The notes under the pieces: model-generated
Seen by the model: only the letters and a program-made list of their open reading frames with translations
Databases searched by the model: none
Told to the model about the DNA's origin: nothing
Shown: positions 26,243 to 45,470 of the stretch, one piece after another
Layout: each line of letters starts with the position of its first letter
How positions within the stretch are numbered: position 1 is the first letter of the stretch
Position numbers and translations under genes: made by a program
Assembly (NCBI RefSeq): GCF_001183985.1
Contig: NZ_LFZW01000001.1
Coordinates: 1,942,373 to 2,006,372 of the forward strand
Length of the DNA stretch: 64,000 nucleotides
Direction of reading: 5' to 3'
Origin: Peribacillus loiseleuriae
GTDB taxonomy: Bacteria; Bacillota; Bacilli; Bacillales; DSM-1321

Positions 26243-26295
26243 AAAGTTAACTTATTTGTGTCCAGGATATTGACCTAGATCCATTCTTCTTCTTC

Positions 26296-26325
26296 AAGTA
26301 ACGGGGCAGTTTAGTTAAATAAGGC
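26296..26325 (+). repeat. Small interspersed palindrome, family 1
   Basis: GTAACGGGGCAGTTTAGTT and then AAATAAGG. Same family as 27377-27396 (split by the IS110), 29064-29096, 34687-34717, 44444-44476 and 45147-45166. Confidence 0.6.
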
Positions 26326-26482
26326 AGAAATCGAAAATAAGTTTATTTAACAAAATAGTACAGGGGTTAACTATTGCTTAATAACGAGTTCCTTGTTCAT
26401 ATCTACTATGGCAAATGTGCAGAAATTTAAGAAGATATTGTGGTACACTTAAATAACAAAAAAATCTGAAGTGAGGAATTAT

Positions 26483-27355: not shown

Positions 27356-27439
27356 ATAAAACTTTGTGAACCATTACACTTAAACTAACGGGTGCTTCGT
27401 ATTATAAGGTTAACCAGTAAAAATTACTGGTTGACCTTT

Positions 27440-27643
27440 TTTTAATAGAATCTATTATATCAGTAGCCAGGGTAGGACGTACGGGTGCGTGGGACATGAT
27501 CCCGTGAGCTAAACTGTCCGCGCCCCCTACTTGTACAAACATGTTTGAGGCTGGTTGGGACGTAGATCTCGTATAACAAGCGAAGCTATGACACTATATG
27601 GAGGACTAGGGGTACTGGTTAGTACGTAGAGGAGGAAAAAACG
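27440..27643 (+). ncRNA. IS110 bridge RNA / seekRNA region
   Basis: Non-coding end expected to specify the IS110 guide RNA. A target-binding-loop structure is visible: outer stem GGAC (27475-27478) with GTCC (27516-27519), 12-base left loop (27479-27490) containing ACGGGTGC, inner hairpin GGGA/TCCC (27491-27503), and 12-base right loop (27504-27515) containing GCTAAACT. The left loop equals the left flank of the element, and the right loop is complementary to the right flank. The homologous region at 44820-45000 folds identically with different loops and a compensated stem. Exact RNA ends and the donor loop were not resolved. Confidence 0.8.
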
Positions 27644-28846
27644 ATGAATCCAGTAGTTGGTCTGGATGTGGCAAAGGGAGAGAGCCAAGTTCAGGCCTTT
27701 TTAAATAAATCAAAACCGTATGGAAAGAGCTTTTCAATAAAGCATACTAGAGAGGAATTAGATCATTTTATAGGATTTTTAAAAGAGATCGAAGAGGTGA
27801 CAGGGAAAATGCCTATGATCATTTTAGAATCTACAGGGCATTACCATACTCCCGTTATTCAATACTTGGAGGAACAAGGGGTTCTATATATCTTACTAAA
27901 TCCCATTATTTCTTAAAAGGCAAAGAAGTCTAGTTTACGAAAGGTAAAAACAGACGCAATCGATGCGTACCAGTTGTGCGTGTTGTATTACAAAGAGGAT
28001 TTTGAACCTCATAAAATTAGAGGGATTCAGCTTTTAGACCTTCGGAATTTGTCAAGACAACAGGAAATCGTAATGAATATGTATGTGGAAGCTAAACTTC
28101 AGTTTCATACTATTTTAGATCAAGTGTTTCCTGAATACCGAAAGGTTTTTGGCGATTTATTTTCAAAGGTTTCATTATTGATGTTAAAAGAATACCCTAC
28201 TTCAGAGGCAGTATTAACAGTCGGGGAAAGTAAACTAGCAGAGAGTGTAATGGAGTTCTGTCCTAGCCGATCTGGTCAATGGGCATGGGAAAAAGCCAAA
28301 AAAATAATGGATTCCGCATCTCGAAATCCATTTCGAACAAGCGTGTATCAAAGTCACTTAATTAATCTGCGTATGTATATTGATCTGCTTTTTCATTACC
28401 AGGGACACCTTTCTGATTTGGAAGAACGTATCGTTGCCTTGACAAATGAAGTGGAGGAATACAAGATCATCCAATCGATTCCGGGAATCGGAGAAAAAAT
28501 CGCTGCCATGATTATCTCTGAGATTGGTGAAATCGATCGGTTTAATCATCCGAAAAAACTCGTTGCCTACGCTGGAATCGACCCTAGTGTTCACTCATCA
28601 GGTAAATTTACGGCAACCATCAATCGTATTACTAAAAGAGGTTCGAGCAGACTACGTCATTCCCTGTATCTTGCCGTTTTATACGGGATAAGGAGTTCAA
28701 GAAACAAAAAGCTTAAAGCTTTCTATGATAAGAAAAAATCAGAAGGAGAGCCAGCCAAAGTGGCAATCGATGCCTGTATTAATAAGCTTCTTCATTGGAT
28801 TTACGCTTTATTAAAGAGAAAAGAAATGTTCCTAGATTTAACCTAA
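27644..28846 (+). pseudogene. IS110-family transposase with one in-frame stop
   Basis: DEDD (RuvC-like) recombinase of 400 codons. MNPVVGLDVAKG holds the first catalytic Asp, ILESTGHYH the Glu, and KVKTDAIDA the later Asps. The C-terminal transposase-20 domain has IPGIGEKIAAMIISEIG and AGIDPSVHSSGKF with the nucleophilic Ser. A single TAA (27914-27916, codon 91) interrupts the frame after NPIIS. Both halves stay in the same frame and otherwise look intact, so inactivation is probably recent. GGAGG precedes the ATG. Confidence 0.9.
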
Positions 28847-28987
28847 TTAACGGTTTTGTGAAACAGAGAAAAATCCTTCCAAAAGGGTTTTGGAGGGTTA
28901 TTTGTCATGACTAAAAATAGTATATCATAAGGGAAATGAAAATTTTAGAGAAAGATATTGGCTTCCTATTAGCTGGTTTAGTTAAAC

Positions 28988-29015
28988 AAGACCATCATTA
29001 CGATGGTCTATTTTT
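28988..29015 (+). terminator. Terminator, repeated at 34587
   Basis: AGACCATC and GATGGTCT arms followed by ATTTTT. The same hairpin followed by a family-1 palindrome occurs at 34587-34613, so hairpin plus palindrome form a composite repeat. Confidence 0.75.
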
Positions 29016-29063
29016 ACGTCCAAAACATCAAGAGTGATTTCACCGATACAATGTGAAATGTTA

Positions 29064-29096
29064 CACTTAAACTAACGGGGCAATTAGTTGAATAAG
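29064..29096 (+). repeat. Small interspersed palindrome, family 1 (uninterrupted)
   Basis: CACTTAAACTAACGGGGC followed by AATTAGTTGAATAAG. This is an intact example of the sequence that the IS110 has split at 27396/28975. Confidence 0.65.
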
Positions 29097-29165
29097 CAAT
29101 GAGAAAAAATTATATATTATGTGTCGATGTAGAACTATAATATACAAAAATCAGGAGGTGATTAT

Positions 29166-34613: not shown

Positions 34614-34686
34614 ATGCCCAAACAGTTGTATATTTCCAAACTAAGATTATACTGTCGCCTGAAAGACATTGGGTTTCATTTTCATA

Positions 34687-34717
34687 TTCAACTAACGGGG
34701 CAGTTTAGTTCAATAAG
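34687..34717 (+). repeat. Small interspersed palindrome, family 1
   Basis: AACTAACGGGGCAGTTTAGTT followed by CAATAAG, then a run of eight AT dinucleotides (about 34724-34740). Confidence 0.6.
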
Positions 34718-34810
34718 AATCCATATATATATATATATATTGGTAATATTTGTTATAATAAAACAGGGAATTGTCGTTAGGAAAATTGCAGTTCAAGGGG
34801 GAGCATAGAC

Positions 34811-44406: not shown

Positions 44407-44476
44407 GAGTAGCGCCCAATTATGGAAGATTATAAGTATATGTCTTGTTAAACTAACGCACCCGTTTGTTTAAGTG
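44407..44476. repeat. Adjacent family-2 and family-1 palindromes
   Basis: Family 2 at 44407-44428 (AGCGCCCAATTATGGAAG). Family 1 on the minus strand at 44444-44476 (CACTTAAACAAACGGGTGC, then GTTAGTTTAAC), a nearly perfect palindrome that shows the arms and loop of the family clearly. Confidence 0.6.
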
Positions 44477-44520: not shown

Positions 44521-44750
44521 CTATAAATTCCTATCTAACAAAATCCCCACTTGTTCTGCCACGACTCGAGTTGGTTCAGATATTCCATTGGTGATCCACG
44601 CTTCTACTAACTCTACGATGGCAGCTCCAAAAAATATAAGAATTAAATCTTTACTTAATCCCTGATTTTTTCCTTCGGTTACATCTACTTCACCCTCCAA
44701 CTCCTCGATGATAAATTCTAGGAAATGACTACGAAAAGCAGGGGCTCCTT
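44521..44750 (-). pseudogene. C-terminal fragment of a TetR-family regulator
   Basis: Minus-strand frame reads SHFLEFIIEELEGEVDV, then IFFGAAIVELVEAWITNGI, VAEQVGILLDRNL and stop at 44521. The aliphatic helix with EAWITNG followed by the E(Q) helix and LLDRNL resembles the ligand-binding end of TetR/AcrR regulators. The DNA-binding N-terminus is gone; upstream sequence is the start of an IS110 transposase. Confidence 0.65.
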
Positions 44751-45035
44751 TCACCTTTTGGCACATCCAGACCAATGACTGGAATCATTTCTATCTCCCC
44801 CTTGAAAATTATTAACCGGTAACCCCTATTCCTCCATGTAGTGTCATAGCTTCGCTTGTTATACGAGATCTAAGTCCCAACCAGCCTCAATCATGTTTCT
44901 ACAAGTAGGGGGCGAACTGTTTAATGGACGGGATCAAGTCCCAAGGGCGCTTACGTTCTACCCCGGCGACGGTTAGCATATATCGATATAAAAAAAGGTC
45001 AACCAGAAATATCTTCTGGCTGACCTTATAATACG
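44750..45035 (-). mobile_element. IS110 5' end remnant (second copy)
   Basis: Reading on the minus strand from 45035: terminator hairpin (CAGCCAGAAG with CTTTTTTT tail), guide-RNA region, then AAGGGGGAGATAGAA before an ATG opening MIPVIGLDVPKGE, cognate to MNPVVGLDVAKGE of the full copy. The transposase breaks off after about 14 codons at the tetR fragment. About 250 bases align with 27397-27685. Confidence 0.88.
44820..45000 (-). ncRNA. Second IS110 bridge RNA / seekRNA region
   Basis: Same fold as 27475-27519. Outer stem GAAC (minus strand, 44955-44958) with GTTC (44914-44917), compared with GGAC/GTCC in copy 1, so both strands changed together. Left 12-base loop (44943-44954) contains AAGCGCCCTT, equal to the flank of this copy (45036-45045). 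Inner hairpin GGGA/TCCC is conserved. Right loop (44918-44929) reads GTCCATTAAACA. Confidence 0.8.
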
Positions 45036-45166
45036 AAGGGCGCTTTTCTGTAACAAGCAACAGCGCTTATTTCCATTATAGGTCCAGATTGTTGAGGATC
45101 GCTATCACGTATAACGTTAGAATAATAATTGATATTGTGAAGAGTCTCACTTAAACTACGAAGCAG

Positions 45167-45470
45167 GTGTGCGGCCGAGCCTAGGTCGTATCATATAGCG
45201 GGTGGGATTCCCGTCGAGAAAGAACTAGCCATTCACTCGTAGCGAGTTTTGGAGGGCTAATGGTAACATTAGCCTTTAAGCGTAGACAGTTAGGTGGCGG
45301 GCCGAAAGCCAAACGGTTGAAGGGATTGAGCTCTATAATGTTAGTAAATCGAGAGGGCTGATGCCTTCAGCACAGCAGAAAGCTACATTTTATCCATCGT
45401 TAAAGGCAAGAAGGATAAAACCTCTCTGGAGTCAGAGACCTTGGCACGTCACACATTGATATGATACGGC
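45167..45470 (+). mobile_element. Group II intron, 5' domain I fragment
   Basis: Starts with the intron 5' consensus GTGTG/GTGCG (45167-45173), continues with GGGTGGGATTCCCGTC, GTAGACAGTTAGGTGGCGGG and GGTTGAAGGGATTGAGCTC, typical of the folded 5' domain of bacterial group II introns. No maturase, domain V or domain VI follows. It interrupts a family-1 palindrome whose left half is at 45147-45166. It may be the missing 5' half type of the intron at position 1, but identity of the two cannot be shown here. Confidence 0.55.

Follow-up and report, generated by a model that had tools for sequence, protein, structure and literature searches.

The window, a stretch of 64,000 nucleotides of Peribacillus loiseleuriae DNA, holds an IS110-group element whose left end very probably encodes a bridge RNA that guides the transposase to a REP-like palindrome (probability about 0.93). 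Behind this reading stand the family of the element, the layout of its RNA, the matching and covariation of guides and flanks, the palindromic target and the presence of uninterrupted sites, all of which were observed. A preliminary description of this DNA had proposed that the loop guides the element to REP-like palindromes, and guide-flank covariation among relatives now supports this proposal, with a putative transcript.

The element occupies 27397..28976 on the forward strand and runs from TCGTATTA to TATTAGCTGG, as defined by six near-full copies in the same genome, their aligned ends and an exact junction at L114/L292. Both PF01548 and PF02371 were matched by the window transposase in a protein-domain search, NF033542 was matched by its pieces as well, and the DEDD RuvC-like N-terminal domain and the Transposase_20 C-terminal domain are both present in two pieces that share one frame. 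Piece 1 (27644..27916, forward; PF01548, DEDD domain) terminates at an in-frame stop, and piece 2 (27974..28846, forward; PF02371) follows it. Within its IS110 lineage the window copy is a decayed one, and because of the stop in its reading frame it cannot make a full transposase; the case for guiding therefore comes from its relatives and not from this copy. Two paralogues in the same genome have open reading frames uninterrupted over 401 and 400 codons. The uninterrupted paralogue L006 matches NF033542 (IS110 family RNA-guided transposase) with 232.5 bits, and its best relative of solved structure is IS621 (E 4.4e-24).

By family and way of working the element belongs to the IS110 group. Its non-coding left end of 247 bases (27397-27643) encodes the putative RNA, and the right end past 28846 comes to 130 bases. 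An architecture of the IS1111 type, with the RNA in a long non-coding right end, was considered and rejected, the RNA sitting in the left end. The host genome (G000; 5.43 Mb, 7 contigs) gave 18 matches to the element, six of them near-full, and the left end is present in at least 30 of the 36 genomes of the genus. Eight plasmid records also contain relatives (6 Peribacillus, 1 Sporosarcina and 1 Niallia), 4 of which cover at least 80% of the element. A remnant of the left end of another IS110 element lies on the reverse strand at 44748..45036, with guide AAGCGCCC at 44945-44952 and flank AAGCGCCC at 45038-45045. Together with ACGGGTGC at 27388-27395, the window alone already holds two matched pairs of guide and flank.

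The left end is arranged in two loops as in the bridge RNA of IS110 elements, here a putative RNA. Read directly from the window, the target-binding stem-loop (27475..27519, forward) is closed by the stem GGAC (27475-27478)/GTCC (27516-27519) and contains two loops of 12 nt, GTACGGGTGCGT on the left (27479-27490) and GTGAGCTAAACT on the right (27504-27515), on either side of the apical hairpin GGGA (27491-27494)/TCCC (27500-27503). Stem, hairpin and loops were thus all found where the preliminary description had put them, and compensatory changes occur in both stem and hairpin. An alignment of 28 sequences, one relative per guide with the window copy included, gave a consensus that keeps the target-binding stem and the apical hairpin; 98.5% of cells are paired, and sliding the pairing partners abolishes the pairing. 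Changes on both sides were seen in 8 of the 36 pairs (22 cells), against a mean of 4.2 in shuffles, none of 500 being as high, and the further pair types in the same covariation test were not significant (97/500 shuffles). The single-sequence fold of the window RNA was no better than shuffles (z +0.93; 166/200 as good), and the structure rests on covariation over the relatives. Rfam models gave no match in a scan of the window element. Among the aligned relatives the first internal loop is hypervariable, and the second hardly varies. The window copy carries two additional bases in the lower stem of the target loop (27519-27522), and these are absent from the other 27 aligned sequences.

A terminator-like hairpin with a T run is found at 27406..27438 (forward; 2 such sites against a shuffle mean of 0.2), and a promoter-like TTGACC-16-TATTAT at 27431..27458 (forward) is, by pattern match, a candidate bridge RNA promoter (2 sites against a shuffle mean of 0.7). 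The candidate left donor guide GGCTGGTT (27549..27556, forward) contains the donor core TT, agrees at 7/8 positions with the right end of the element plus core, AGCTGGTT (28971-28978), and is almost invariant in the relatives shown. A tentative right donor guide, ATAACAAG (27573..27580, forward), would pair discontiguously with TCGTATTA; in relatives with TCGTAATA ends, GTATAAC is replaced by GTTTAAC.

Relatives were gathered from a genome scan (best 80 of 495 confirmed candidates), from the own genome and from the genus, the last as 80 further regions chosen among the matches listed. From 204 parses, 37 were dropped (20 for want of a left-end anchor, 7 for more than 1 mismatch in the anchor, 6 by distance, 3 as short/N and 1 without a core), and removal of 13 duplicates from the remaining 167 rows left 154 distinct insertions. 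The right end could be located in 110 of these.

The right boundary had earlier been drawn at 28974, with the following GG taken as flank. This was off by two bases, and GG (28975-28976) belongs to the element. GG is found at 109 of the 110 located right ends (GGTT in 107, GGAT in 2 and GCTA in 1), a count that leans toward GG in the element because the right-end anchor, for which up to 8 mismatches were allowed, itself contained GG. Independent support comes from L114/L292, where the flanks joined without GG give the exact uninterrupted site: the joined flanks of L114 and the uninterrupted L292 of another genome agree at 92.9% over 212 bp and are identical at the junction. The dinucleotide at the left junction is GT in 80, TT in 29, CT in 17, GA in 13 and AT in 10 of the 154 insertions, with 5 others; it is thus xT in 136/154, while the right one is TT in 107/110, with a one-base ambiguity in the placement of the core. 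On the simplest reading, the target core xT is kept at the left and the donor core TT at the right, the donor junction being ..GCTGG-TT-TCGTATTA... The joining point of the window copy is uncertain by a single T; if this T is counted in, the site is AACTAACGGGTGCTTTAGTT, of which genome G007 has at least 8 uninterrupted occurrences, G008 at least 2 and G009 at least one. The wider window site is 84% identical over 88 columns to a Psychrobacillus locus (L027). An empty orthologue of the window site was not found among five relatives with the neighbouring gene (74-78% identity), which match only to about the end of that gene.

The left target guide (27481..27490, forward) consists of ACGGGTGC and the core GT. 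As had been described, its first eight bases (27481-27488) are identical at 8/8 positions to the left flank (27388-27395, ACGGGTGC). In the window copy guide and site are out of register by a single base, with ACGGGTGC+GT as guide and ACGGGTGC+T as site. It is by the relatives and not by the window alone that the match exceeds chance. Over the 154 insertions the left guide agrees with its own flank at a mean of 7.0/8 positions in the best of three registers, and shuffled guides reach a mean of 4.62 and a maximum of 5.12 (2000 shuffles). At least 6/8 matches are found in 143/154, in register 0 in 99, +1 in 32 and -1 in 12; when the guide was slid along the flank to the other offsets tested, 0 or 1 insertions had at least 6 matches. 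A one-base shift of register is needed in 44/154, the window copy included, and 11 more fall below 6/8. In two of these poor fits (L009 and L166) the flank is separated from the element by a group II intron, and a third, L125, has the flank GGGGTGC and the guide AAGCACCC. Several other poor fits seem to come from decay of the copy or from a misplaced left end. At L125:1478-1510 the palindrome stands in the wrong orientation for guide AAGCACCC.

Guides and flanks change together. Compared with that of the nearest relative to carry another guide, the own guide fits better in 137 of the 154 insertions, with 11 ties and 6 losses, the backbone distances that define the nearest relative including some truncated copies. 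Counted by guide class, 32/33 fit their own flanks better and 1 loses; a change of the loop is accompanied by a change of the flank, which is the covariation that the preliminary description had called for. GGGTGC is present in the flank of 50/57 GGGTGC-guided copies and of 3/90 others. A constant loop beside varying flanks is not what the relatives display, as 54/58 ACGGGTGC-guided copies match their flank at 6/8 or better, 41 of them at 8/8 and 13 at 6-7. The 154 insertions comprise 40 guide-plus-core types, and a tree of 147 rows built without the loop requires a minimum of 32 changes of the guide 6-mer. An independent-pairs test on the tree with four guide classes gave on average 3.1, 3.3, 4.3 and 4.5 pairs for the association and 0, 0.4, 0 and 0 against it; it was significant for no single class (median p 0.06 to 0.25), the pairs being too few. 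Guides are near-identical in close copies, with a mean of 0.01/8 differences at a backbone distance below 0.02 and of 0.08 at 0.02-0.05, distances that again include some truncated copies. A fast turnover of guides was considered and rejected, since close copies conserve them.

The right target guide (27504..27515, forward; reverse complement AG-TT-TAGCTCAC) probably pairs with the right target, with weaker support than for the left guide. Its reverse complement AGTTTAGCT agrees with the flank GGTTTAGTT at 7/9 positions, exactly as claimed before. Over the relatives the fit is 5.62/7, against 5.19 for shuffled guides with a maximum of 5.42, and the own guide does better than that of the nearest differently guided relative in 80 cases, with 21 ties and 8 losses.

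By its sequence the target is a REP-like palindrome of the form AACTAAC-loop-GTTAGTT. In the window its left half (TTGTGAA-N7-ACTTAAACTAACGGGTGCT) lies at 27364..27396 (forward), with the left target ACGGGTG/ACGGGTGC and the junction dinucleotide CT at 27395-27396, and a REP profile trained on motif-selected uninterrupted sites of other genomes matches it at 27374-27397 with 13.2 bits. The donor core TT (28977-28978) and the right half (TAGTTAAACAAG...) follow the element at 28977..28992 (forward). Besides this split copy the profile finds four uninterrupted ones in the window, at 26283..26326 (24.1 bits), 29061..29100 (15.2 bits), 34679..34720 (33.6 bits) and 44441..44474 (20.3 bits; loop GGGTGC/GCACCC), and ten shuffled windows gave one match of 9.1 bits. 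That joining the flanks rebuilds the palindrome, another point of the preliminary description, holds for the window (17.9 bits joined, 11.7 and 0.3 for the halves) as well as for the relatives (mean 17.2 bits, and 6.8 and 1.2 for the halves). At least 20 bits are reached by 45/108 joined flanks, by 0 of either half alone and by 6/108 left halves joined to distal right sequence. An uninterrupted site elsewhere matches 70/109 joined flanks over 15 nt or more to either side of the junction, a few of the 70 being other insertions and not repeats (e.g., L099).

The left flank of the window copy is itself an interspersed repeat with matches in 32/36 genomes of the genus, many of them to only its last 30-40 bases. 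A loose palindrome pattern had little or no excess in the window (34 matches against a shuffle mean of 31.5), and further counts with the loose pattern gave 109+97 against 88+86 for the reversed pattern, again little excess. Summed pattern matches came to 257 forward and 193 reversed, a modest excess with some genomes below the control. Simple pattern counts are thus weak evidence, and the recurrence of specific loops (GGGTGC, CTGCCCC and GGGGCAG) is the evidence for scattered palindromes. The palindrome is often followed by a terminator-like hairpin and then by another palindrome, the whole forming a composite of about 90 bp; one example is L029:4644-4736, and up to 26 scored matches per genome were seen in the genus. 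A text search of the literature for the letters of the repeat gave no title on such a repeat among the matches listed.

It is very unlikely that the transposase protein alone recognises the palindrome and that the likeness of loop and target is due to descent or chance. Protein recognition of palindromes has been suggested for REP-targeting elements by Tobes and Pareja (PMC1525189, the available part), and since right flanks differ little across the clade (RT TAGTT in 56/110), a constant target accounts for some of the signal. However, the part of the target that lies in the loop changes with the guide between relatives, both by insertion and by guide class, and the confinement of GGGTGC largely to the flanks of GGGTGC-guided copies is at odds with recognition by protein alone.

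Even less probable is a reversed order of cause, in which the loop would have been overwritten from the flank after insertion by gene conversion and would record the site instead of choosing it. Such conversion would likewise yield covariation, and there is indeed a resemblance between the guides and parts of the palindrome, but conversion would produce perfect matches, whereas the loop is kept at differing sites (13 of the 58 ACGGGTGC-guided copies match at 6-7 positions) and close copies have near-identical guides. A chance match combined with the shared ancestry of a few lineages is hardly credible: one guide is common to 58/154 insertions and the independent-pairs tests are not significant by themselves, but the number of guide-plus-core types and of guide changes on the tree stands against it, and the shuffles never came near the observed value. 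Guiding by a left-end bridge RNA is therefore preferred.

Following the model of IS621, the left end would encode a bridge RNA transcribed from the promoter-like sequence at 27431-27458. In its first internal loop, the left guide (8 nt and core) and the right guide would each pair with one side of the palindrome's loop region, and the transposase would use the RNA to join a circular junction (..GCTGG-TT-TCGTATTA..) to the palindrome. After joining, the left junction would keep the target dinucleotide and the right junction would read GG-TT. Transcription, the circle, RNA-guided strand exchange and the RNA as the cause of target choice are all taken by analogy from IS621.

Owing to the palindromic arms, what is a GGGTGC loop on one strand is GCACCC on the opposite one, and guide classes exist for both. 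The asymmetric long arm TTGTGAA-N7-ACTTAAA lies to the left of 9/44 GGGTGC-guided copies and to the right of none, and for GCACC-guided copies it lies to the right of 3/15 and to the left of 1 (Fisher p 0.014). In one case (L099:1-130) two IS110 left ends stand back to back in one loop, reading TAATACGA, AAGCACCCGT and TCGTATTA in succession, and their guides read opposite strands of that loop, ACGGGTGC for the left element (opposite strand) and TCGCACCC for the right one.

A group II intron (RF02005, RF00029) inserts at the same nucleotide of the palindrome as the IS110 elements. Copies are found in the window (3' end at 1-372, 5' end at 45169) and at L002, L006, L007, L009 and L031. The left arm of the palindrome precedes the intron in 14/14 distinct upstream exons, in a sample that is biased because about half of its loci were fetched by palindrome searches. 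Among the downstream exons 8/11 begin with TAGT or TACTT and 2/11 are an IS110 left end; at L009 and L166 the intron separates the target core from the left end of the IS110 element. We regard it as an even bet that a Bacillota IS110 lineage has been repeatedly re-addressed along the loop variants of one palindrome family, on both strands, with differently guided elements and the group II intron sharing the same few nucleotides; the palindromes might then serve as a shared landing pad, and the diversity of guides might be driven by that of the loops.

The relatives provide 154 distinct natural pairs of guide and target from one IS110 clade outside Proteobacteria, and they make rules of target choice testable, namely the one-base tolerance of register, the preference for a core and the stringency of the right guide. 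The guide set also offers naturally re-addressed recombinases. REP targeting by IS110 elements extends to palindromes unrelated in sequence to the REPs of E. coli, and one palindrome loop is used from both strands by two elements (L099).

IS621 targets REP palindromes of E. coli, and in its group the first loop is variable and the second conserved, according to the available part of the IS621 paper (PMC11208160). As far as that part goes, the present element resembles IS621 in its transposase domains, its putative left-end RNA, its guides for both sides of the target and the use of REP palindromes as targets, and differs from it in the probable core, donor TT and target xT here and CT for IS621. 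Unlike IS621 of E. coli it has a Bacillota host and a palindrome unrelated in sequence; its transposase is about 400 aa long (328 for the chain of IS621), one clade has many natural guides, and one-base register shifts are common. ISPa11, ISPpu9, ISPpu10 and ISRm19 are likewise IS110/IS1111 elements in REPs, but all belong to Proteobacteria in the available text of PMC1525189 and PMC11187229, whereas the element here is from Bacillota; in the IS1111 group, ISPa11 included, the RNA lies in the right end and not, as here, in the left. The word 'Bacillus' is absent from the main text of PMC11208160, PMC1525189 and PMC11187229, and the openly licensed literature gave no title on IS110 guidance to Bacillus palindromes, which is not proof of absence from print. 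The group II introns beside the palindromes are a parallel RNA-guided case with an unrelated enzyme and RNA, not a relative. The proposed mechanism is that of IS621 and as such already known, and REP targeting by IS621 and its Proteobacterial relatives is in print; new are the many natural guides for one Bacillota palindrome family, the double use of one loop at L099 and the intron at the same nucleotide.
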